Source: Oceanicoccus sp. KOV_DT_Chl (lineage in GTDB: Bacteria; Pseudomonadota; Gammaproteobacteria; Pseudomonadales; Dasaniaceae). From it: a stretch of DNA of 64,000 nucleotides. Made by a program: the position numbers and the translations under genes. The stretch lies in assembly GCF_900120175.1 (NCBI RefSeq), contig NZ_FQLF01000002.1:2356001-2420000 (forward strand). The letters run 5' to 3'. The first letter of the stretch is position 1, and each line of letters opens with the position of its first letter. This document shows positions 48,463 through 63,307 of this stretch, one piece after another. Below the pieces are notes generated by a model. That model saw nothing but the letters and a program-made list of their open reading frames with translations, was not told the DNA's origin and searched no databases.

Positions 48463-49430
48463 TTATGACTGGTGATACCCAACACACGCTTTAACTTCGT
48501 TGGCGGCGCCTAGAATGACGGGTACCCGCTGATGAATATGCTCTGGCTGGATATCCAGAATGGGGCCTTGATCGGTGTAGGCTGCGCCCCCGGCTTGTTC
48601 AACTAGCCAGCCCATGGGGTTGGCCTCATACATAAGCCGCAGCTTGCCGGGTTTATCGGGTTCGCGATTATCCCAAGGGTAGGTGAATAAGCCGCCGCGA
48701 CACAGAATGCGATGCACATCAGCGACCATGGCGGCAACCCAGCGCATATTGTAGTTTTTGGCGCGGGGGCCTTGATCACCCGCTAACAGGTCTGCAATGT
48801 AGCGTTGCATGGGTTCGGCCCAGAATCGCTGATTGGACATATTAATGGCAAATTCTTTGGTGTCAGCGGGATTGCTACTTTTTCCACGGTTAATACAAAT
48901 TCACCGATGCTCTGGTCGAGGGTATACATTTGTACGCCGTTACCGGTGGTGAGGACTAGCATCACTGATGGGCCGTAAAGCACATAGCCGGCAGCGGTTT
49001 GTTGCCGACCGGGCTGTAAAAAGTCCTGTTCACTGGCCGCTCCTGACCGGGGTGCTGTGAAAATGGAGAAAATGGTGCCTACCATGCTATTGATGTCGAT
49101 ATTAGAGGAACCGTCCAAAGGGTCAAAGGCCACCAGGTAATTACCATCAAGGCTGCCGCTGACAATACTTTCTTCTTCTTCCGAGGCGATGGCCCGAACA
49201 GTACCTGAACTCAGCAGATAGTCTTTTAATAAGTCGTTGGAGATAACATCCAGCTTTTTTTGCGTCTCCCCCTGCACATTTTCTTCACCGGCAGAGCCGA
49301 GTACGCCGGACATGGCGCCCTGTTGCAGGCGAAAGGCGATATCTTTACCCGCGGTGGCAATAGTGGCAATCAGGTTTATCAAGTCAGTGGCAAGGTGGTC
49401 AGCTTGTAATTGTTGGTTAAGTCGCTGCAT
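48463..49430 (-). CDS. fbp: Fructose-1,6-bisphosphatase class I, one apparent frameshift
   Basis: FBPase is the gluconeogenic enzyme hydrolysing fructose-1,6-bisphosphate. The N-terminal part has [12 protein letters not shown], the metal site [13 protein letters not shown] and [13 protein letters not shown]. The frame breaks at about 48866-48870. Restoring one G on the coding strand (CCGGCT) reads [19 protein letters not shown], and the rest ([39 protein letters not shown]) completes about 322 residues, the usual length. AAGGAC precedes the ATG. The gene stands alone on this strand between unrelated genes. Confidence 0.94.
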
Positions 49431-50160: not shown

Positions 50161-50688
50161 ATGAAAAGTCTAAAAGCAACAGCGTTAATATTTTTTGCTT
50201 CTTCCATTGGATTCTCATTAACAAGCCATGCAGTTGATTCTTCAATTGCGTCGTCGGCCGATATGGATTATTGCAAAGTGAGTTACGTCGATAAGACAGA
50301 TGGTCGTGAAGGCGTATATCGTGGTCAGTGTCAAAACAACAAGCCGCACGGTTCAGGTTCGGTTGATTTTAATAATGGTGCGAAATTAACCGGTACTTTT
50401 GAAAAAGGTCGTTTCTCCGGTGATGGCACTTATCGCACAGCTGCTGGTGATGTTTATCAGGGTGATTGGTCTCAAGGTAAGCGTCATGGTCAAGGTACTT
50501 ATACCTGGGCTCAGGGCAGCCACTATGAAGGTGAGTGGATTGATGACAAGCGCGAAGGTCAGGGTGTTTTTACCTGGGCTAATGGCAATCGTTTTGAAGG
50601 AGAGTTTAGAGATAATAAGCGTTACAACGGTAAGTACTACACCAGTACTGGTCGGATTTATAAATGTCGTTTAGGTCAGTGTCGGTAG
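50161..50688 (+). CDS. Exported MORN-repeat protein
   Basis: The 175-residue protein has a signal peptide (ATALIFFASSIGFSLTSHA) followed by about five MORN repeats of roughly 23 residues (YRGQCQNNKPHGSG, LTGTFEKGRFSGDGTY, YQGDWSQGKRHGQGTYTWA, YEGEWIDDKREGQGVFTWA, FEGEFRDNKRYNGKYY). The tail ends YKCRLGQCR with two Cys. MORN repeats form elongated beta hairpins and often bind lipids or proteins. Its role in the periplasm is not known. A strong terminator follows at 50784, so the gene is monocistronic. Confidence 0.9.
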   Translation: MKSLKATALIFFASSIGFSLTSHAVDSSIASSADMDYCKVSYVDKTDGREGVYRGQCQNNKPHGSGSVDFNNGAKLTGTFEKGRFSGDGTYRTAAGDVYQGDWSQGKRHGQGTYTWAQGSHYEGEWIDDKREGQGVFTWANGNRFEGEFRDNKRYNGKYYTSTGRIYKCRLGQCR

Positions 50689-50817: not shown

Positions 50818-50992
50818 GCCTGCAGATACTGATTTCAATACTGGATGTGTGCAGTTTTATTTTTTAACGATCAATTTTTTTAAAGATTCTAAATAATTAA
50901 GCCGCAATGAATGCGGCTTTGTAGTTTTTGATACCTATAAAAATCACCTTGAAGGCATTAAGAAAACATTCTGTTATTTAGTCAGCTGATCG

Positions 50993-53900
50993 TTAGGGAT
51001 TATCCTCTGCAAACTCAATCAGTAATGCTCTTTCTGTTGCATCGATGGTGTAATTTCTAGGTGCCATATCGACAGCATCGCAATCATTTAAAGAGCCATC
51101 GTTGATTAAGCAGGCTGCTTTAGCGCGGCTGGTGGTGAATGTGTGGCAGGCACCATCACATGTCTGCGCGTATTCGCCTATTGGCTGTGAGAAGAATGTC
51201 TGCGCAGCAATATCGGTCAACGTGACATCGGTGTCGGCTGAGCGGCCAGGAGTAGAGTCTTCCGAGGAAAGACTGTTAGCGGTAGCACGCACTGTGATGT
51301 TGCTGTAGGTGGTGTTTGAGTTCAAGCCGCTAATCGTTGCCGATGTTGCATCTACCGCGGTATTACTGCCCTGCGCAGTGCCATTGAAGTACACGCGATA
51401 GGTAGCACTGCCGTCGTTATTTGCGCTCCAGTTTATGGTTAAGGAGTTGGCGCCGGTTTCCGTTTCCGTGAGGGCGCTCACTGAAGGTGCCTCGGGATAG
51501 GTGGCGGCACTGTCGGCTAAAGAATCATAGGATTCCAGATCCGGTGTTGGTGAGGTCAATACAGCCCTGACGATATAGCTATAGTTGATGCCACCGGTCA
51601 GCCCGGAATCTTCAAAGCTGGTGCCTACCACTGGCGTCCCTCCGTTGATTTTACTGCCATTGCGGTAGATGTTGTAACCATCGGCGCCGACAACACTGCC
51701 CCAGCTAATATCGGTTCTGGTTGTTTTGTTAAGTGTGGTATCGCCGGGAGCTTTGCTGCTAGCTACTACAGCGCTGGGGGCAGAAGGTCTGGTCAGCTCT
51801 GAATCGGTATTGGAAATGGCAGACTCAACGCCGTCGTACACCGCTTTGATGGTGTAGTCGTAACTGTTGCCTGGCGTGCGGCCGGTGTCAGCATAGACTA
51901 AGGGATCAGTGCTGAGGACATTGGCGATGGCGCTACCGCTGCCATCACTGCTGCGGTAGATGTTGTAACTATCTACACTGCCTGAAGCGGGCGCGCTCCA
52001 TGCCAAGTCGATTTGGGTATCGCCATTCGCGCCATTCAATGTTGCCGTTAAACTCTGAGGCACATTGGGTGCTGTGCTTAAGCTGGCGGTGGCTACACCG
52101 GAGTCGGCACCCTGGTTGGCAGTGATTTGATAGATGTACGTAGTCGCGGCGCTTAAGCTGTCAGTATCTACAGCAAACTCATTAGTGGTGCTGCTCTCTA
52201 CGGAAACAGTAAAGCTGCTACCGCCATCATTACTCCGTTCTACCAGATAGTCATCTTCGTTCGCGATTGGACTGGTCCAGGTGAAGCGAATTTGGCTATT
52301 GCTGGTGTTAGCCAAGTCGATGGCTATTGACGTGGCCTCAAGTGAATTTGTCGTTGCCGTAGCTAGCGCTACATTTTCTGCGGTTTGGCTCTGTTCGTCG
52401 CCATTGAAAATGGCGGCGATTTTATATTCATACTTGGTGCTATTTGCCACCGCGGGATAACCCCGTGATGCAGCATTGCTGGCATTGTCACTATAGCTTG
52501 TCGCCAAGGCAGTGACCGTAGGTTGTGCGCCTAAGAGGGTGTACGCACCGTCGTTAGTGCTGCGGTAGATATTGTAGCCCTCGTCGGTGAAAGCTGCAGG
52601 TACATCCCACGATAAAACAACATGGGTGGCGTCCTCGGTGCCGTCGAGTGCGGCGGCTAGATTGGTCGCTTCATCGGCTCCTGCGGGTAAGGTGGTTTGG
52701 TCCAGTCCTGGGTCATCGGACGGCAGCGATTCTTGTTCCAGCAAGCCGCCGCTGTTTACCAGTGCAGTGACATGGTAAGTGTATGTCATATTCGGTGTCA
52801 GGCCCGAGTCAGTAAATTGGCTTGAAGCCACTTCAGTTATTTTGGCACCGTTGCGGTACACGCCATACACATCGACATTACCGCCGGGGTTATCCCAATC
52901 CAGGTCAATATCGCTGCGCCCGTCCGTGCCAGCCGACAAGTTCAGATTAATCGGCGCTAGCGGCGTAGTGCTTTCGTTAGCGGTATTTGAAAGCGGCGAT
53001 TCTTGTATACCATCAAAGGCTGTGACTCTGTAGCTATAGCTGGTGCCTGGCGTAAGGTCAGCAGTGTCTTTACCGTCCGCTAGCGTGGTGCTGTCATCGG
53101 TAATCGTTTGAATAAGAGCGGTGTCGCGATACACACGGTATTCATCAATGGTTGCCGCGCCAGCTGCAGGTGCTGTCCAGCTGATATTGATATCAGTGGT
53201 ATTGTCGTCTGTGCCGCTGTTATCTGCGGTGACTGCTGTCGGTGTTAATGACGCAGTAGCAGCTGAGGCGTTAGTGGGGTTAGAGTTAACACCACCAACT
53301 ACAGTAGTCACACTATAGTTATAAGTTGTTCCAGCGGTTAAACCGGCACCATTGTTATCATCACTGAAATTAGTGCCGGTGATCAGGCTGCTGTTAAGCG
53401 GTGCGCCTGTGGCACTGGCATTGCGATAGACATTGTAGCCGTCAATAGTAATCGCGGTAACGGCTACCCAACTGAGGTCAATTTCAGTGGTGTTATTTAC
53501 CGCATCAACTGTTGCCGTGGCGCTTTGTGTAGCGGTGGTGCCAGCAGGGGTTGAGTCTATAGTGATGGTGGCAAAACCGGCCCGAGGAGAGGTGTTACAG
53601 GCGCTGGATGTTGTTGATAGACTGCCATCAATATCGCTGAGCTGGTATTCAATAACATCGACACCGCGGTTAAATGGATTGTCGAGTTGATAAGCAAACG
53701 TTTGGCCGTCGTTATTGATAGTAGCCGTGCCAAAGCTGCCGCTGTCGATACTGCTGATGCGAATGCCACCATCACCTCGTGCGGTAATATTGGCGGTGGT
53801 CGCAATAGTATTGAGTACTGTCGAGCTGGCTAATGCTGCAGTATTGACGTTAAAGCATTCTGCTACCGGTGTACGATTCTGGATGACAATATCCTTGCTG

Positions 53901-56332
53901 ATCGAAGCTTGTTGGCCAAGTGTGTTGAGTGCGGTGAGAGTAACGCTGTAGGTGCCGCCAGGAATATCGGCACTGAATAAATTATTCAGGCCGGTGCTGT
54001 TACTCAGGCTGGCAGTCGAACCGTTGGGGGTGGTGAGTGACCAGCTGAAGCTGTTACTAAAAATGCTATTAGTTGCGTCGAGTATTATGGTGTCATCAAT
54101 GCTTGGCTCAGCAGGACTGAAACTGAAATCTGGCACGGGTAAGCCTGGTGTCTGCTGAACGGTTTCACCAATACTGACTAAGTGAGCGCGTAACAGGTCA
54201 GCAGAAGACGTGCCGCTACCGTTGAAATCGACCCAAAAACGGTCCATCGATAAACGCGCCGCAGGCATGATGCCCTGACTATAAACGTAATCAATAATAC
54301 GGTCTTTTTTATCTAAAAACTTTTCATAGCTATCAAAATTATTGGGCTTGTTAGCCAGCTGCGTGTGGCAGATACGGCAGGTTCTTGAAACAACATTGCG
54401 ATACAAATCTTCCTGACCAACCCAGCCTGCAGGTACATAGTCACCGTCAAATGCCTGATTGGGAAGTTCATCAATGGGTAGTTCAACATCGGGGTCACCA
54501 TACCAACCGTGGATCAGTTCAATGGATGCTTCGTAGCGTTCCGGATTATCTATATAGGTAGCCAAGGCGCCAAGATTAAGTTTTCTCAACTCGGCTTCCT
54601 GACTTTCTTTACTGAATTGATCTATTTTTGCTGCGGAGAATAAGCTTGCGTTTAAACTCGGCTCAATAATTTTAGGGTCTAGTGCATGGCTGTATAGAAA
54701 AGAATCCAAATCCCAAGGCAGAAATGTCGCATTTAGGTCGGCATCTGCAACTTCACTATAGTCCCGATTCCCTGGGTTGCTTTGATGACAGATGGTACAG
54801 ACGCCAGGCACAAATTTTTCGCCACTACCGTCAAAGTTGAGGCTACCTACACGAATAAAGTCGCCGCTTCTTTCATCAAAGACATAAACAAAAAACTTAA
54901 CAATTTTTGCATTGGCGCCATCAGGGTCAGGGTTTTCACTGTATTCCATAGCAACCGCGGCAAATTCTCCGTTTTGTTCCATGCCGGCTTCAATGGTTGG
55001 GTAGTTAACAACATAAGAATAAACATTGCCGTTTGGGGCTTTGCGTAAATACATGTCGCGACCAAAGCCTAAGTCATAATTGTTAACATAGAGTGCCTTG
55101 GAAATTTCATCGCTGCGGATAATGGCACCACTGGCATCAATAAATCCGGCATTTTTTTGCCAGTTACTGAGGGTGGTTAATTGGCCGTCTGGATCGATAA
55201 GGTTGTAATAAGCATTGGCCGAAATAGTACTTTCCAAACCCAGTTGCTTGAGAATATTAGTGGTTAGTAAACTTGCAGTTGGAGTGACCTGCCAGCTTTG
55301 AAGCAGTGCGCCGTTTGCAGCGGCAAAACTATTGACCGGGCTTTGTAATTTGTTAATTGATATTAATTGTTTTTCCTGTGCGGCTAGCTGCTTTTTGTTG
55401 CTGGAATCACTGTTACCAATGGCTGGGGAGTTGGTTTGCGTTTCGACAGTATCTGAGTCAATAAGATCGCCACCGCGCGTTAATGCATACATCTCGAAGT
55501 CAACGCTGCTGCTATTAATAGTTAGTTGTATTTCTAAATACGCCGTTGGAATATTGTAGGTTTCCAGGCGGCGATCGCGCTCGCTGGTCTCAAAGTTTTG
55601 ATTAATATCGTCAGCATTTAATCGTAATAGCTCTATGGTTAAAAGTGGGTTGCGGGGCTCCGATAGCGGTGCATAGTTCACTGCAGGGCTGAAATTTTTT
55701 GGAAAGCTACCATCAATAGTACGGGTGTCGATGCGTAGTTGTTCTGCTTCGCCGAGTCGATTTACCCAGTGAACGATAGTGGCAACTTCAATGCTGAATA
55801 ATTGTTCGGCGTTACCGGTTGATTCGCCCCCGCGCAGTGCGGCCAGTAGTGTCAATTCACTGGGTGGGGTGTTAGGGTCCGAAAGAAAACGATCTTGATC
55901 AGAGACTGGAATGACAGTAATGGATAAGGAATCGGTATCGGATTTGCCATTGGCGTCGGTGACAGTTAATTCGAAGGTGAAGGTTTCTTCACTGGCGACA
56001 TCAGGTGTATTAAAGGCTACTGAGTTGGCAGTACGTTCAATAAGCGTCGTCGTTTGGCCGTCCGTTTGCTTCCATTCAAATTTTAAAATAGGGGCGACGT
56101 CGCTATCGCTGTCTTTTCCGGTAAGTGTAGCCTGGCTATTAGCTCTGGCTACAAACATTTTCTCTGTGGTAGAAACACTAGCCCCTAGCCCGAGCACACC
56201 AGCGATAGCTTCAGGCGGCGTGTCGTCATCCTGATAACCTGCATCGCTGCCGCCTCCGCCGCCACACGCGCTGAGTAGGCTGAGGCTGGCTGCGAAAATA
56301 AGGCTACTAAATGTAAGGCGTGAAAAAGCCAT
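50993..56332 (-). CDS. Giant lipoprotein with c-type heme motifs and FN3 repeats
   Basis: The 1779-residue protein has a lipoprotein signal (FAASLSLLSACGGGGG, Cys 23). A PKD/cadherin-like domain lies at about residues 60-140 (FTFELTVTDANGKSDTDSLS). A central part has two c-type heme motifs, CTICHQ near residue 512 and CRICHT near 652, with a possible Met ligand region (QGIMPAARLSMDRFW). A PKD-like domain at about 745-820 precedes about eight FN3 repeats (900-1690; YNVYRN, YRVYRD, YNIYRS). The C-terminal domain has CDGACH, a CxxxCH variant, and DMAPRNYTIDATERALL. It is the last gene of a four-gene minus-strand unit, 14 bases after the barrel gene. Surface electron transfer or heme-dependent binding is inference. 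Confidence 0.85.
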   Translation of the reverse strand: MAFSRLTFSSLIFAASLSLLSACGGGGGSDAGYQDDDTPPEAIAGVLGLGASVSTTEKMFVARANSQATLTGKDSDSDVAPILKFEWKQTDGQTTTLIERTANSVAFNTPDVASEETFTFELTVTDANGKSDTDSLSITVIPVSDQDRFLSDPNTPPSELTLLAALRGGESTGNAEQLFSIEVATIVHWVNRLGEAEQLRIDTRTIDGSFPKNFSPAVNYAPLSEPRNPLLTIELLRLNADDINQNFETSERDRRLETYNIPTAYLEIQLTINSSSVDFEMYALTRGGDLIDSDTVETQTNSPAIGNSDSSNKKQLAAQEKQLISINKLQSPVNSFAAANGALLQSWQVTPTASLLTTNILKQLGLESTISANAYYNLIDPDGQLTTLSNWQKNAGFIDASGAIIRSDEISKALYVNNYDLGFGRDMYLRKAPNGNVYSYVVNYPTIEAGMEQNGEFAAVAMEYSENPDPDGANAKIVKFFVYVFDERSGDFIRVGSLNFDGSGEKFVPGVCTICHQSNPGNRDYSEVADADLNATFLPWDLDSFLYSHALDPKIIEPSLNASLFSAAKIDQFSKESQEAELRKLNLGALATYIDNPERYEASIELIHGWYGDPDVELPIDELPNQAFDGDYVPAGWVGQEDLYRNVVSRTCRICHTQLANKPNNFDSYEKFLDKKDRIIDYVYSQGIMPAARLSMDRFWVDFNGSGTSSADLLRAHLVSIGETVQQTPGLPVPDFSFSPAEPSIDDTIILDATNSIFSNSFSWSLTTPNGSTASLSNSTGLNNLFSADIPGGTYSVTLTALNTLGQQASISKDIVIQNRTPVAECFNVNTAALASSTVLNTIATTANITARGDGGIRISSIDSGSFGTATINNDGQTFAYQLDNPFNRGVDVIEYQLSDIDGSLSTTSSACNTSPRAGFATITIDSTPAGTTATQSATATVDAVNNTTEIDLSWVAVTAITIDGYNVYRNASATGAPLNSSLITGTNFSDDNNGAGLTAGTTYNYSVTTVVGGVNSNPTNASAATASLTPTAVTADNSGTDDNTTDINISWTAPAAGAATIDEYRVYRDTALIQTITDDSTTLADGKDTADLTPGTSYSYRVTAFDGIQESPLSNTANESTTPLAPINLNLSAGTDGRSDIDLDWDNPGGNVDVYGVYRNGAKITEVASSQFTDSGLTPNMTYTYHVTALVNSGGLLEQESLPSDDPGLDQTTLPAGADEATNLAAALDGTEDATHVVLSWDVPAAFTDEGYNIYRSTNDGAYTLLGAQPTVTALATSYSDNASNAASRGYPAVANSTKYEYKIAAIFNGDEQSQTAENVALATATTNSLEATSIAIDLANTSNSQIRFTWTSPIANEDDYLVERSNDGGSSFTVSVESSTTNEFAVDTDSLSAATTYIYQITANQGADSGVATASLSTAPNVPQSLTATLNGANGDTQIDLAWSAPASGSVDSYNIYRSSDGSGSAIANVLSTDPLVYADTGRTPGNSYDYTIKAVYDGVESAISNTDSELTRPSAPSAVVASSKAPGDTTLNKTTRTDISWGSVVGADGYNIYRNGSKINGGTPVVGTSFEDSGLTGGINYSYIVRAVLTSPTPDLESYDSLADSAATYPEAPSVSALTETETGANSLTINWSANNDGSATYRVYFNGTAQGSNTAVDATSATISGLNSNTTYSNITVRATANSLSSEDSTPGRSADTDVTLTDIAAQTFFSQPIGEYAQTCDGACHTFTTSRAKAACLINDGSLNDCDAVDMAPRNYTIDATERALLIEFAEDNP

Positions 56333-56346
56333 GGTGTTCTCCGGTT

Positions 56347-57816
56347 TTAAAATTCGTAGCGTAAACCGCCAGCAATAATCTTTTGACGATAGTCGCCAAT
56401 ATCTTTGATTTCGCGATAGTTGAGGTAGATTTGAATGCCGCCACTAGCTGCAGAGCCAAAAGTATCCTGACTTGCGCCACGGATTACAGAAGACATTCCT
56501 ATCGTGTAAATTTTATAATCAGTATCAGTGCCGTCGGTAGGTAAAGAAAATTGAGAGTCTTTACTTAAGACCGCCGAGGCATCGCCGTAGGTGGCGGTAA
56601 TAATTTCTGGATCAGCATGATGCTGGGTATAGAAGCCAATATCGGCATAGGGGATAAATACACCAAAGCGGCTACTGATGACGTACTGTAATTTTAAGTT
56701 GGCAACTGTTTCGAGTGATTCAATTTTTTGCTCGCTGACATTAAAATTAAAACCGTCGTTTTTAATATCTTCTTCGCTATATTCTTCGATAGTAATATTT
56801 TGATAGTTAACAGTGATTGATGGGTCAAAAGTGAGGCTTTGCGTAAGAAAAAAACTGTAGCCAGCGGTAAGGCTGGATGAAATAATATCGGCACTATTGG
56901 AGCTGGTGGCGACAGTGTCGGTGCTTTCAGTGTTAGGGTTTAGTGATGGATAACGGATGCTGCGGTCGGTATCGAAATCAGCTCGCTGTAATCCCAGCGA
57001 GGCACTGTAGTACCACTGATCAGATTGATAAAGTGCAAAAGGCATAAACGAATAAGCCCGCATATCGACGGTGCCGTCTACAATACTTTGTGAAGAGTCA
57101 AAATCAATTTCCTGCTGTTGATAAGCGATCAGTGCGCCTACAACCCAGTTATTATCAATTCGAAAATCGATGCCAGCATTTATCTCATTGCCATCAAAAT
57201 CAAAAGCATCTTCCAGTTCGCTAGCTTCTTGATTGCCGTAGGTATAGCTACCGTTTAAAAAGCCGCCCCAACGTGACCATGCATCGATAGTGTTATCGTC
57301 GCCAGCGTTGCTGCCGCTAGTGGTGTTGCCCTCGAGGTGTTCGATACCTGACAGGTTAAAACCGCTGGCGCCACTACGCAATGCGCTAATACGCGAGCTT
57401 AATCCGGATAATTGCCCGTTAACAAAACCGTTAGACATGGATTCTTGTGACGAAAATTCTTCGCCGGCAGTCCAGCGCAGTGCGAATCCCAAGCCAAAAA
57501 GAGGAACATCCAAAGAGTATTGGGTAGGGCCACCGTTATTGGATAGCTCGTTAGCGGTATGCACTAATTCACGTACATTATTCCAGACAATAAAAGTTGT
57601 GCCGCTACAATTAGCGGTCGCAATGCGATCCGAATCCTGACAGCCCTGGGCTTTTAGTTCTTCATAGGCTTGCTGGTTGGAGATAGCGGCGCGCTCTTCC
57701 AGTTCGCTGGCGTAGCTGCCTTGAAAATCTAATAAGCTGGCATGACTGATACTAGAGACCAGTAGTGTACTGCTGATAGTAAGCAGCTTAATGGCATCGT
57801 TAGAAAGCGCTCTCAC
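56347..57816 (-). CDS. Outer-membrane barrel protein, autotransporter-domain-like
   Basis: The 489-residue protein has a signal segment (LLTISSTLLVSSISHAS) and an N-terminal region of about 180 residues with two Cys (QGCQDSDRIATANC). Then comes a barrel of alternating strands (GGFLNGSYTYGNQEASEL, NWVVGALIAYQQQEIDF, YSFMPFALYQSDQWYYSASL) ending in GGLRYEF, a typical barrel terminus with C-terminal Phe. The layout resembles an autotransporter beta-domain with a short passenger. GTG start with GAGGGG before it. It lies 14 bases upstream of the heme/FN3 lipoprotein gene and may anchor or export it, which is unproven. Confidence 0.82.
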   Translation of the reverse strand: MRALSNDAIKLLTISSTLLVSSISHASLLDFQGSYASELEERAAISNQQAYEELKAQGCQDSDRIATANCSGTTFIVWNNVRELVHTANELSNNGGPTQYSLDVPLFGLGFALRWTAGEEFSSQESMSNGFVNGQLSGLSSRISALRSGASGFNLSGIEHLEGNTTSGSNAGDDNTIDAWSRWGGFLNGSYTYGNQEASELEDAFDFDGNEINAGIDFRIDNNWVVGALIAYQQQEIDFDSSQSIVDGTVDMRAYSFMPFALYQSDQWYYSASLGLQRADFDTDRSIRYPSLNPNTESTDTVATSSNSADIISSSLTAGYSFFLTQSLTFDPSITVNYQNITIEEYSEEDIKNDGFNFNVSEQKIESLETVANLKLQYVISSRFGVFIPYADIGFYTQHHADPEIITATYGDASAVLSKDSQFSLPTDGTDTDYKIYTIGMSSVIRGASQDTFGSAASGGIQIYLNYREIKDIGDYRQKIIAGGLRYEF

Positions 57817-57859
57817 AGATTTCCCCTCGGCAGAGTTAATTGGTGATGATCAATTTTTA

Positions 57860-59485
57860 TCATGATTTAGATTTGGGTATAAAGAAAAAGTCGCCTACTT
57901 CATGCCCTGCGCCTTTAATCGTTTTGTACACTGGGTTTTGATCAAAATCGACTTCCTTGGCGGAGGTGACAACTTTTTGTCGAACCTGCATATACAATTG
58001 TGGGCCCGACAAAATAGCTTGGTTACCTTTTAAAACGTCGATAAAGGCTTGGGTGAAAACCGAGTGATTACCACCCACGCCATCAAGTACCGGTTTGTCA
58101 CCGCCTGAAGCTAATAATAAACGCGAACGTTTACCGGCTTTGTATTTGATGTATTCATCGGTCATGGTGCCATCTTTCCCCATCATCAAAAAGCCTGGTG
58201 CGCTGGATAGCAGCCCTGCATAACAGGAGTCGGCAACAACTAGTACCCGTTTGGCGTTGAAACGGGTTAGGTGGCGGGTGACAAATTCATTGGAAACCCA
58301 AAAGGTATCGCGGGGCGGGGCATCGGCGTTAGAGGGTAGCCAGTAGCCGGATTCCAGTTCGCCTGTTTGTAAGCGCGCGCCATGACCAGCATAGAAAATC
58401 AGTAAGTTATCGTTTTCGGTTAATTTTTCATTAATGTTATTGATCGCTTCCATAATGCTGACGTCGTCAGCATTAATGACTTTTTGTACTTGGAAACCGT
58501 AATCATTTGTGAGAATTTCGGCAATGGTGTTAATGTCGTTGACGGGGGTGTCCAGATTATTAATGGCAGAATATTTTTCGATGCCAATAACCAAAGCATA
58601 ATATTTTCCAAAATTGATATCGCCCACGGATACATCTTTGCCCGTGTTAGTGAATGTTAGCGTTTGCGCGACAACAGTAGGAGTCCGTAACTTTAATCCT
58701 TCATTGTTTTTCTCGAGAGTGGCTTTTTTACTTTTAATCGCCTTGTTTTCTTGCTCGAGTTCGTTCACTAGAGCTTGCAGTTCGCCGACTTGTTCTTTGA
58801 GGTCATTATCTTTTTGCTTGCTCAGGGTTTTGCTCAGTGCCGCGATTTGTTGTTTCATGACCGATATTTGCAAATCTTTCTTGCGAATATCTTTGTTAAT
58901 TGTGGTGAGTAATTCTTTTTGTTGTTCGTCTACTGCAGATTGAAATACCAAGCTGTCTTCTGGCAGTCCCCAGGCTTTTCGATACCAGCTTAAAGCCATT
59001 ACCGAATCTTTTTCTACACCCAGGCCCTGCTCATACAAAGTACCAATGTTAAATTGCGCACGTTTATTATTTTGTGCAGCCGCTTTCTGGTACCAGATTA
59101 GGGCGGCTTCGTAGTTTGGCGTGCCGCCAACTCCTTTTTCAAAAATCTCACCAACATTGACTTGTGCGTCAGCATCGCCCTGCTCGGCAGTAGGCATCCA
59201 TACATTGAGCGAGGTTTTAAAGTCGGCGCGATCATATGCGACATACTCGCCACCACGAATTTGGCATTCGGCAGCGGTCAGGGTGGCGGGGCGACGGGGT
59301 GTCATATAACTGCGATTACCGAGCATGCGCATTTGACCCGGTAGTAAACAGTCGACCACTTGCAGCTCTGCGATGCGGGTTTCCCGGGCAGTTAGGCTGG
59401 CAGCATTACTCGTCAAGGCACTCAGTAACAGCGTGCTTAACAAAGAGTGTCGAATTACCGTGTAGCTAAGTGTTTTTTTGAACAT
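57860..59485 (-). CDS. Exported caspase-fold (C14) protein with Sel1 repeats
   Basis: The 541-residue protein has a signal peptide (HSLLSTLLLSALTSNAAS), then two Sel1-like repeats at about residues 105-175 (AQVNVGEIFEKGVGG, AALIWYQKAAAQNNKRAQFN). A long coiled coil (about 190-260) follows. The C-terminal C14 domain has the catalytic His in IFYAGHGARL and Cys in VLVVADSCYAGLLS, so both residues are present. The domain starts KYYALVIGIEKYSAINNLDT. The location is probably periplasmic. It lies 43 bases upstream of the barrel gene and 140 bases downstream of the kinase gene, on the same strand. Bacterial C14 proteins act in signalling and cell-death-like responses; the target here is unknown. Confidence 0.9.
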   Translation of the reverse strand: MFKKTLSYTVIRHSLLSTLLLSALTSNAASLTARETRIAELQVVDCLLPGQMRMLGNRSYMTPRRPATLTAAECQIRGGEYVAYDRADFKTSLNVWMPTAEQGDADAQVNVGEIFEKGVGGTPNYEAALIWYQKAAAQNNKRAQFNIGTLYEQGLGVEKDSVMALSWYRKAWGLPEDSLVFQSAVDEQQKELLTTINKDIRKKDLQISVMKQQIAALSKTLSKQKDNDLKEQVGELQALVNELEQENKAIKSKKATLEKNNEGLKLRTPTVVAQTLTFTNTGKDVSVGDINFGKYYALVIGIEKYSAINNLDTPVNDINTIAEILTNDYGFQVQKVINADDVSIMEAINNINEKLTENDNLLIFYAGHGARLQTGELESGYWLPSNADAPPRDTFWVSNEFVTRHLTRFNAKRVLVVADSCYAGLLSSAPGFLMMGKDGTMTDEYIKYKAGKRSRLLLASGGDKPVLDGVGGNHSVFTQAFIDVLKGNQAILSGPQLYMQVRQKVVTSAKEVDFDQNPVYKTIKGAGHEVGDFFFIPKSKS

Positions 59486-59625
59486 GGTCGCTCCATATTG
59501 TTAAAGGCGATTTCAACTTGATTGCTGTTGATTTGTTAGGTAGTGGACGCGTGCTTAGTTAATATTAACGCTTAGCTAAAGTGTCTAACTATACCGCTCT
59601 TTAACGATAATAGCGTATCAGCGTG

Positions 59626-61228
59626 CTAGCGGGTTTCCTGCTGTAAATCTTTGTACTTATCGTTATTAGAGATAAACGAATATTCTCCAATGGTGCCAAG
59701 CTGCTCAATTAAAAATTTTTTCTCGTCACTTGACGGTGCTTTTTTTAATTGCTGGGAAAAAAACTTCAGGATTTGATCGCTACGGTCTTCTACATCATCA
59801 TTACTGTTATGAATTTTATAGGCTCTGTCGAGATAGACCAGGGCACCGTTGTAATCTTGAAATTTAAGCGCGGTATCTGCTTCGGCAATATAGGTTAACA
59901 CTTTTTGTTGCTGTTCGATGGGGAGCTCCGATAATGGAATGTCGTCATCTACGGCCTCTATCAAAAAGGTGTTGGCAATGATCAGTACTAATACTAGTGT
60001 GCCGCCAATCAATACCCGTCGTGGTCCATTTACGGCCCACTGCAAGCTGGATAAAAATTGGCTGGCGCTCTGGGTGCGTTGTTCTCTTTTTACCGCAATG
60101 GCATTAGTAATTAGACGGCGATAGAGCCACTTAATGGGTTGCTTGAAAGTGGGTTTAAGTTTTAACTCGAGAACATCGGTGGCAAAGGTATTTTCGTAGG
60201 GATGAACGCCAGCCATTAATTCACCGGCTATTATGCCGAGAGCATAAATATCATCGCGAGGGTCGGGTCTAGCCCCTTAAACATTTCTAAACTGGCGTAC
60301 TTGGGAGTGAGAGCATTTAAGTCGCCGGCATCGTAAGTGTCTTTGTACAGTTCGGTGTTAAGCGCGCGAGCAATACCGAAATCTAACACTTTAGTTTGGC
60401 CAGTGTTGGTGTAGAAAATATTGCCCGGCTTTAAATCGGAATGGATAATACCTTTCGAGTGGGCATATTCCAGCGCCTGCGCGATCTCTTTTACGATTTT
60501 GAGAGCAGTTTTGAAGTCTACAACTATATCGGTTTTACCCTTGATGATGGCGTCGAGCGGATGACCGTCCAGCTCTTCCATGGTCATAAAGACGGTTTCA
60601 CCATCACGGTCGAAGTCGTACACAGTAATAATGTTAGGGTGAGCAAGCGCCTGGGTTTTTTTCGCTTCTCGCTGCAGCGAGATAAAAGCGTTAGGGTGTT
60701 GCTGGAAGTCGCCGGTCAGAAGCTTGATGGCGATATTAGGTTGATCGTCATCGGCTTCCACTTTTCGTAAATCGACCGCTTGGCAAACCATGCCCATGCC
60801 ACCTTGGCCCAAAATTCTTTTAATAATGAAGCGGTCTTTGATGGCGTCGCCACCAACCGCGTAGGGCTTGTGCAATGTATTGGTAAGTGGGTTTCTGGTC
60901 TCGGTATAGTTAGTGGTGTTGGCGAATTGTTTACTGGCGGATGCTACTTGAGGGTTTGCACGGTTGGGTGACGGTGAATCGCCGGTGATAGTGTTGTCAT
61001 CTGCGAGCATGCCGGTGTTGGCAATAGAAATTGTGGAGCCAGGCCGGTCGGTGATGGTGGCATCGTCAATGGGTTTGGCGTCAGTGAATGGCACTGGAAT
61101 AATAATGGTGCCATCCTCGTCGCCACGGACTGCCGTTGCGTCGTTGTCCCGCAGCTGGGTTTCTTCTTCGTTATGGTCTAACGATCCGTAAGGGTCGCAT
61201 CGGGGTCGGTTATATTTTTATCGGTCAT
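59626..61228 (-). CDS. Membrane Ser/Thr protein kinase with TPR-like C-terminus, two apparent frameshifts
   Basis: The kinase domain (residues about 95-350) shows the P-loop ILGQGGMGMV, Lys in NIAIKLL, HSDLKPGNI, VLDFGIAR and TPKYASLEMF. One break near 60263-60264 (one lost G on the coding strand, CCGG) reconnects GLDPDPRDDIYALGIIAGEL with MAGVHPYENTF. A second near 61181-61185 reconnects the start ATG at 61228 (MTDKNITDPDATLTD) to LDHNEEETQL. Corrected length is about 534. A membrane helix (VLIGGTLVLVLIIANTFLI) separates the kinase from a periplasmic TPR-like part (ALKFQDYNGALVYLDRAYKI). It heads the unit with the caspase, barrel and heme lipoprotein genes. The long acidic N-terminus is unusual. 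Confidence 0.85.
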
Positions 61229-61372: not shown

Positions 61373-63307
61373 CTAGCAATTGAGTCGATGTTCAATCAAT
61401 TGGTCAACCACTGAAGGATCAGCCAGTGTCGATGTGTCACCCATGTTATCTAGCTCATTGGCGGCAATTTTGCGCAGGATTCGGCGCATGATTTTTGCAG
61501 AGCGTGTTTTTGGCAAGCCTGGCGCCCATTGAATCAAATCCGGTTTCGCTATGGGGCCAATTTCTTTTACGCACAAGGCAATGAGCTGAGCTTTTAATTC
61601 ATCACTGGGCTGCTGGCCGTCCATTAAGGTGACATAGGCATAGATGCCTTGACCTTTGATATCGTGAGGGTATCCCACCACGGCAGCTTCGGCGACTGCA
61701 TGGTGTAATACCAGCGCGCTTTCCACTTCGGCGGTACCCATGCGGTGGCCAGACACATTCAGCACATCATCGACCCGACCGGTAATCCAGTAGTAGCCAT
61801 CGGCGTCCCTGCGCGCGCCATCACCGGTAAAATAATAGCCGGGATAAGTGCTGAAATAGGTATCGATGCAGCGCTGATGGTCACCAAATACAGTGCGGAT
61901 CTGGCTGGGCCATGAGGCTTTGATAACTAGATTGCCTTCGCCTGCGCCTTCAATTTCGTTGCCATCGTTATCCAGTAGTGCGGGCTGTACGCCGAACATG
62001 GGCTGACAGGCCGAGCCTGGTTTGAGTGCGGTGGCGCCAGGTAAGGGGTTAGCATTTGGGCGCCGGTTTCGGTTTGCCACCAGGTATCGACGATGGGCAG
62101 TTTGGAGTTACCGACCTTTGTAGTACCACTCCCAGGCTTCCGGGTTGATGGGTTCGCCGACGGTACCTAACAATTTTAGTGAGCTTCGAGAGCTGCCGCT
62201 AACAAATTCATCGCCGACCGCCATTAATGCCCGGATGGCAGTGGGTGCGGTATAAAAGATAGCGACTTTATGTTTATCACAAACTTGCCAGCAGCGTGAT
62301 GCATCCGGGTAGGTGGGTACGCCTTCAAATAATAAGGTGATGGCGCCATTGGCTAGCGGACCATAAAGGCAGTAGCTGTGGCCAGTTATCCAGCCGACAT
62401 CGGCAGTACACCAGAACACATCGCCGTCTTTATAATCGAAGGTGTATTTAAAGGTCATGGCCGCTTGTAATAAGTAACCGCCAGTGGTGTGCAGCACCCC
62501 CTTCGGTTTGCCGGTGGAGCCGGAAGTATAGAGAATGAAGAGCGGGTCTTCGCTGTCCATTGATTCGGGCTCGCATTGTGCGTCAGCATTAGCTGTTGCC
62601 TGGTGATACCAAACATCGCGACCTTCGGTCCAGCCAATATCACTGCCGGTGCGTTGGACGGTAATAACGGTATGGACATTGGGGCAGCCCGCCACCGCCT
62701 TATCTGCATTGGCTTTGAGAGGGATCGCTTTACCGGCGCGTACCCCTTCATCTGCGGTAATGAGCACCTGGCAGTCGGAGTCGAGGATGCGGTCTTTTAG
62801 TGCTTCCGGTGAGAAACCGCCGAATACTACTGAGTGAACAGCGCCAATTCTGGCGCAGGCCAGCATTGCATAGGCGGCTTCAGCAATCATTGGCATATAG
62901 ATACAGACGCGGTCGCCTTTGTTAACGCCGCGTTGCCGAAGCACATTGGCGAGTTTACAAACGTGTGAGTGGAGTTCGTTATAGCTGATGGTTTTGCTGT
63001 CATCGGGGTTGTCGCCCTCCCAGATAATAGCGGTTTGCTCTCCGCGGCTGGCTAAGTGGCGGTCGATACAGTTAGTGGTGACATTAAGTTTGCCGTCGAC
63101 AAACCAGGCGGCTTCGGCTTTGCGAAAATCATATTGGCTAACAGCCGACCAGGGTTGGTCCCAGCTAAGGAATTGCTCTGCTTGCTCAGCCCAAAACTGT
63201 TGCGGGTTGCTGATCGAAGCCTGATACATGGTTTGGTATTGTTGCTGGTTGATATGGGCGTTGGCGGCAAAGTCCGCGGGCACGGGGTAAATCTTGGAGT
63301 CACTCAT
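61373..63307 (-). CDS. acs: Acetyl-CoA synthetase, two apparent indels
   Basis: This enzyme makes acetyl-CoA from acetate, ATP and CoA. The N-terminal part has [37 protein letters not shown] and [16 protein letters not shown]. The frame breaks at 62115-62116 (one extra base) and 62045-62048 (one lost base). Between them the true reading is [20 protein letters not shown], followed by [15 protein letters not shown]. The C-terminal part has [20 protein letters not shown] and [14 protein letters not shown], and [13 protein letters not shown], which includes the acetylation Lys region. Corrected length is about 644 residues. The start is ATG 63307 in a normal family position ([10 protein letters not shown]). 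Confidence 0.95.

Follow-up and report, generated by a model that had tools for sequence, protein, structure and literature searches.

A recurring cell-envelope gene set around an exported caspase-fold protein and a Hanks-type kinase

Bacterial caspase homologues have mostly been discussed as stress or cell-death enzymes. Here we consider a 64,000-nucleotide stretch of the Oceanicoccus sp. KOV_DT_Chl genome (contig NZ_FQLF01000002.1, positions 2,356,001 to 2,420,000; the window), in which an exported caspase-fold protein of the C14 type is encoded beside a Hanks-type Ser/Thr kinase, an outer-membrane barrel and a large lipoprotein. Among the closest described systems is the threonine phosphorylation pathway of the type VI secretion system (T6SS), TagQRST-PpkA-PppA-Fha1. 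TagQRST acts at the Pseudomonas envelope to activate PpkA (PMC10482370); the phosphorylation target of PpkA in Agrobacterium is T14 of TssL, and Fha recognises the peptide DLPpTVVEI (PMC3953482). Envelope threonine-phosphorylation signalling in the T6SS is already known, and the gene set described here resembles the pathway of those papers in its membrane Hanks kinase, PP2C, FHA reader and outer-membrane or periplasmic partners, and in having relatives inside T6SS clusters. What sets it apart is a different set of envelope partners, namely C14/Sel1 protein, alpha/beta-hydrolase and barrel, and the fact that no TssC (PF05943) was found in the genome containing the window, where other T6SS genes were not sought. 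The term caspase is absent from the main text of the review PMC10482370.

The caspase-fold protein shares its caspase domain and His/Cys dyad with the orthocaspases, or bacterial metacaspases, among which an architecture of three Sel1 repeats with a metacaspase is tabulated once in PMC4933709. Unlike the orthocaspases, the window family is exported, carries a conserved N-terminal VDCLLPG region and has fixed envelope neighbours. In NTP-dependent conflict systems (PMC7159879) a caspase-like peptidase also stands in a multi-gene signalling context, but these systems add vWA, MoxR or STAND components, none of which turned up in the four window proteins (Pfam) or in the scanned neighbours. A further caspase lead, PMC11253628, was dropped, as the term is present there only in a reference. 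In one library of openly licensed papers, screened mostly by listings, we recognised no account of the C14 gene set, of a caspase-fold envelope partner or of a multi-heme second machine.

Conservation of the gene set

The initial annotation had offered, as a possible reading, that the four genes form one envelope signalling unit, and had suggested looking for the same gene order in other genomes. That order recurs in one other genome, G008, of another genus in the same family (in our comparison set the window's genome is G000, other genomes carry G numbers and gene neighbourhoods carry L numbers), where all four genes lie on one strand, with PP2C and double-FHA genes ahead of them and an exported alpha/beta-hydrolase gene behind, on the same strand. 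A C14 profile had matches at E 1e-40 in 53 of the 390 order genomes and at E 1e-80 in 32 of 369 genomes drawn from the class, G000 included. Neighbourhoods were covered for 51 of the 53 order genomes (G167 and G242 were left out); of the 31 additional genomes from the class, 20 were covered. After L043 (contig edge, no C14 frame) and L046, L047 and L048 (distant C14 proteins) had been dropped, 74 loci were counted, corresponding to 73 distinct places as L163 repeats L109.

The partners found in these loci, called with custom profiles seeded from C14 loci, were a Hanks-type kinase (61), an alpha/beta-hydrolase (48), a barrel (39), PP2C (17) and FHA (12), and 70 of the 74 had one or more members of the kinase, hydrolase and barrel families. 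Because the family profiles were seeded from such loci, the weight falls on a contrast between near and far genes and on loci that the profiles had not seen. With L163 excluded, kinase, hydrolase and barrel families made up 147 of the 405 genes within three positions of the C14 gene; at the fourth position they were 5 of 116, and from the fifth onwards 0 of 401. Among 20 class-level loci unused for profile building, the kinase was found in 17, the hydrolase in 11 and the barrel in 12. A scan of genome contigs gave two loci, one of them the close relative L032 from Luminiphilus sp.

The C14/Sel1 exported protein, the Hanks kinase, the barrel and the exported alpha/beta-hydrolase thus constitute a recurring gene module, which FHA and PP2C genes often accompany. 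Could the window's genes nevertheless be chance neighbours with separate roles? A relative of the lipoprotein occurs in just four of the 74 loci, and the other genes vary in their order, as such a reading would have it; for kinase, C14 protein and barrel, however, it is contradicted and ruled out by the contrast between near and far genes, together with the conserved order in G008, and we consider it very improbable overall. The contradiction does not extend to the lipoprotein, which is a rare add-on to the module and is ruled out as a core partner. The proposed signalling unit fits the conserved neighbourhood, with the lipoprotein removed from its general membership. Beyond what the initial annotation had noticed, the module is accompanied by hydrolase, FHA and PP2C genes and by one of two machines, either a T6SS or a redox operon with multi-heme proteins. 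The exported caspase-fold family thereby gains concrete conserved partners, which makes its roles testable, and the recurring gene set may be a shared control module of the cell envelope.

A redox operon and T6SS clusters beside the module

The redox operon comprises seven genes, of which the first three encode a flavin/cNMP-binding/4Fe-4S protein, a cytochrome b-like membrane protein and an FHA-multiheme cytochrome fusion (10 CxxCH), and the other four an HbpS-like protein, a barrel-like protein, a 10-CxxCH LVIVD-repeat cytochrome and a c554-like 4-CxxCH cytochrome. Porin-cytochrome type electron conduits are its comparison system. With these conduits it shares multi-heme cytochromes: the G008 proteins carry 4, 10 and 10 CxxCH motifs and have Pfam cytochrome matches. 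It also encodes a protein of 617-627 aa that looks barrel-like by eye, has no match in Pfam, NCBIfam or PDB sequences and may correspond to the barrel of the conduits. The operon differs from them in its FHA-multiheme fusion, its flavin/cNMP/4Fe-4S protein and the PP2C and FHA genes behind it. Matches of the cytochromes to the ExtM family and to decaheme proteins were weak; the LVIVD cytochrome was rejected as kin of ExtM, the match covering a heme stretch of 50 residues with 55.9 bits where the cut-off is 800. The fusion of an FHA domain to a multi-heme cytochrome (L121:12281-14029 and L145:6508-8244) unusually connects phospho-reading to electron transfer, and an FHA-EAL fusion protein is encoded at the edge of the G008 redox operon (L121:17607-18701).

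Of the 20 genomes with the LVIVD cytochrome, 16 have the seven redox genes contiguous and in a single order. In G278 and G139 the redox set is interrupted by kinase, hydrolase and barrel genes, the G139 stretch being cut, and the set is partial in G169 and G349; one gene of the operon is split in G000 and G005. The operon and the module are contiguous within about 20 kb in six of the 13 order genomes that have both (G008, G049, G196, G278, G315 and G375), and the class sample adds G592 (L190); these seven genomes span six families. G139 was called not contiguous; its C14 gene is on another contig than the kinase, hydrolase and barrel genes beside its redox genes, and contiguity across the break may hold. 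The C14 protein is found in 13 of the 20 genomes with the LVIVD cytochrome, compared with 53 of 390 overall (p 5e-8, Fisher's test uncorrected for kinship). PP2C and FHA genes, judged in this comparison by custom profiles and frame reading rather than Pfam, follow the redox operon in every one of the 13 genomes that also have C14 and in one of five assessable genomes without C14 (p 0.0016); G169 and G349 were excluded on account of contig ends, and counting them as negatives gives one of seven (p 1.8e-4). The association holds for the seven C14 genomes in which operon and module were not seen contiguous, G000 included (p 0.010).

In G000 itself the redox operon lies at C2:792-809k and is 62-82% identical to that of G008. 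The PP2C and FHA genes, adjacent to the module in G008, are found here behind the redox operon (C2:792-794k), outside the window. A third G000 locus (L122/L144, C2 at about 1.399-1.409 Mb) encodes a hydrolase, a 1066-aa kinase, FHA and PP2C proteins and a 985-aa barrel protein, with no C14 gene.

The second machine is the T6SS, a core gene of which, or tagF, lies near 13 of the 74 loci, L192 being counted on one BLAST match. In L092 (G279) the C14, hydrolase and kinase genes are inside a T6SS cluster with tagF, tssM, tssL, tssK, FHA, tssJ, tssA, tssB, tssC, hcp, impE and a gp25-like gene, and in L032 the same three are surrounded by ImpE, Hcp, VipB, ImpA and FHA genes; the module adjoins FHA, tssJ, tssK, tssL and tssM in L097, and tagF and PP2C in L096. 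On a C14 tree the T6SS label is clustered (5 changes, against 11.3 when shuffled). These observations favour a reading in which the module is a regulatory branch of the T6SS, a counterpart of TagQRST-PpkA-PppA-Fha, orphaned in G000 after loss of the secretion system and with no real redox tie. We regard this reading as unlikely, since G000 keeps the module with an intact dyad in the absence of TssC, 30 of the 53 C14 genomes likewise have no TssC, and seven genomes, spread over six families, have redox operon and module side by side. A T6SS role for the module in the window's own genome was rejected on the same absence of TssC. The occurrence of one module beside both a T6SS and a multi-heme redox operon suggests that envelope threonine-phosphorylation signalling extends beyond the T6SS.

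A candidate signalling chain and the caspase fold

We propose that the window encodes the envelope half of a phosphorylation-based signalling system, a threonine relay from the outer envelope to FHA readers that can be attached to either machine; on this proposal our own judgement is evenly divided. As far as sequence alone can place the proteins, the kinase domain, FHA and PP2C proteins would be cytoplasmic, the C14 protein and hydrolase exported, and the barrel in the outer membrane. Barrel, C14 protein and hydrolase would report the state of the outer envelope, and the outer part of the kinase would dock on them. The active kinase would then phosphorylate its own cytoplasmic tail at D-x-T-hydrophobic motifs, to which FHA proteins would bind and so switch the attached machine, and PP2C would reset the system. 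In G000 the machine would most likely be the redox operon 1.6 Mb away, which the heme lipoprotein would extend outward. We draw the chain in this order by analogy with the T6SS pathways (TagQRST-PpkA and PpkA-TssL-Fha); the direction of the signal, its output, any proteolysis and the periplasmic input of the kinase are putative.

The kinase tails are consistent with this relay, and several points weigh against it. The 33 long kinase tails contain 44 instances of a D/E-x-T-hydrophobic motif, compared with 6.0 in shuffles, in a test for which the motif was picked after some tails had been seen and from which the window's own broken kinase was absent; 11 of the 33 long tails have no such motif, and 25 of 59 kinases are short-tailed. 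Four of the 74 loci have neither kinase, hydrolase nor barrel. Genome by genome, TssC is only weakly associated with C14 (present in 23 of the 53 C14 genomes and in 122 of all 390, p 0.055), 40 of the 53 C14 genomes have no LVIVD cytochrome and seven of the 20 LVIVD genomes have no C14, and the Fisher tests ignore kinship. In G000 module and redox operon are far apart, with the hydrolase relative in the third locus. On the C14 tree, finally, the redox label requires 7 changes against 7.7 when shuffled, and 146 of 500 shuffles are as low. The tree was made quickly, has long branches and omits L111, L118, L119 and L192, for which no start motif was found and among which is one redox-linked case. 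Judged by starred branches, the changes of the redox label number at least 6, and its failure to cluster any more than shuffled labels indicates that this neighbourhood has been joined or split repeatedly.

Stretches resembling the tail motif are also visible by eye in the N-terminal region of the window kinase, and in two T6SS-linked loci TssL starts with such stretches.

A broader version of the proposed relay is that an envelope-sensing module around a periplasmic caspase-fold protein is portable and has more than once become the exchangeable input of unrelated machines that span the envelope, in some lineages the T6SS and in others a multi-heme conduit with its own FHA-cytochrome fusion. 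We hold this tentatively and put its chances somewhat below even. If true, it would place trans-envelope electron flow under Ser/Thr-phosphorylation control by way of a caspase-fold protein.

By Pfam matches and an alignment of 13 relatives, the C14 protein consists of the N-terminal VDCLLPG region, Sel1 repeats in two stretches, a coiled region and the caspase domain (PF00656, 84.4 bits against a cut-off of 21.4). The initial annotation had described a periplasmic C14 protein with intact His/Cys and Sel1 repeats, and this description is confirmed by the dyad H368/C421 and the family matches in Table 1, with export judged by eye. A lipobox pattern, matched by 42 of 56 C14 relatives, is not matched by the window protein. 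A structure model from two sequences (window and L032) had a mean pLDDT of 52.9 and was not used.

The dyad is kept in 54 of the 56 C14-type proteins surveyed, three distant members included, and a barrel gene is present in more than half of the loci (39 of 74). Both are as expected if the C14 protein were proteolytically active in the periplasm and, once the kinase or the envelope signalled, cut the barrel or some other envelope protein, in a stress response or in self-destruction. We find this doubtful. The dyad is lost in L039 (G049; H/A) and in L117 (G315; W/S), both of which adjoin the redox operon, and PADLOC gave general caspase and kinase matches only, no further defence-system search having been made around the window genes. 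Obligatory proteolysis by the C14 protein is weakened by these two losses. The suggestion that the caspase processes the barrel or the lipoprotein is accordingly narrowed: the lipoprotein is a poor general substrate because its relatives are found in so few loci, and processing of the barrel is not obligatory because L039 has lost the dyad and still has an adjacent barrel gene. The C14 fold may act as a scaffold or sensor in places and as a protease in most.

Layout of the window locus

Coordinates of the features are collected in Table 1. The genes run on the minus strand from the kinase through the C14/Sel1 protein and the barrel to the lipoprotein, with gaps of 140, 43 and 14 bases, and the positions and order given in the initial annotation were borne out, the kinase frame aside. 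Signal peptides, lipoprotein sites and the kinase membrane segment were called by eye, the lipobox pattern for C14 excepted.

Table 1. Features of the module locus in the window.
Feature	Position	Strand	Basis
Hanks-type Ser/Thr kinase	59626..61228	-	Pkinase 2.1e-30 in upstream piece; two frame breaks
Exported C14 (caspase-fold) protein, 541 aa	57860..59485	-	Peptidase_C14 1.3e-23, Sel1 3.1e-18
Autotransporter-type outer-membrane barrel, 489 aa, short N-terminal part	56347..57816	-	PF03797 2.2e-31
Large lipoprotein, 1779 aa	50993..56332	-	Pfam, heme motifs and G008 counterpart
Terminator-like stem 3' of lipoprotein gene	50899..50919	-	Consensus scan only

A consensus scan found the terminator-like site past the lipoprotein gene, no minus-strand terminator-like site in the three intergenic gaps and no promoter-like site ahead of the kinase; terminator-like sites in the region number 19, against 12.2 expected by shuffling. 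A single four-gene operon is plausible on these signals and is not proven.

The kinase is not one open frame. Its two pieces (60231-61094 and 59626-60216) align to one G008 kinase of 511 aa with 68% and 56% identity, and comparison with that single frame places the shifts near 60,264-60,276 and between the ATG at 61,228 and about 61,148. Fructose-bisphosphatase- and acetyl-CoA synthetase-like genes, so named by eye without a family search, are each split over two frames at 48463-49430 and 61373-63307 of the window, and a cytochrome gene elsewhere in G000 is split as well. Because these two neighbouring metabolic-type genes and one distant gene are broken too, the breaks are likelier to reflect indel errors of assembly than decay. 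The protein had been described as a membrane kinase with a periplasmic TPR-like part; the kinase match and a membrane segment seen by eye uphold the first half of this description, and the C-terminal part outside the kinase domain has no TPR family match in Pfam.

The barrel was correctly recognised as autotransporter-like (PF03797, 110 bits against 26). About 185 residues precede the match, with no passenger family found there by Pfam, and the protein is 61% identical to that of the G008 gene in the same position. The lipoprotein is laid out as a PKD-like domain, a region with two CxxCH motifs, FN3 repeats and a C-terminal CxxxCH. Its size and heme motifs had been annotated correctly in the main, with canonical CxxCH at 512 and 652 and a non-canonical CxxxCH at 1725; in place of the roughly eight FN3 repeats suggested, Pfam matches six fn3 stretches, together with one PKD-like and other Ig-like domains. 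Identity to the G008 gene is 57% over the first 760 residues and 45% over the rest, and two of the heme motifs are conserved there. The lipoprotein may be better read as an outer component of the redox side.

At the lipoprotein's position in G148, beside C14 and kinase genes, stands a leucine-rich-repeat protein of 1161 residues or more (L110:12577-16059), and this place may hold variable large exported proteins. In the window, a MORN-repeat protein encoded on the plus strand (50161-50688) adjoins the lipoprotein gene and falls outside the conserved set.

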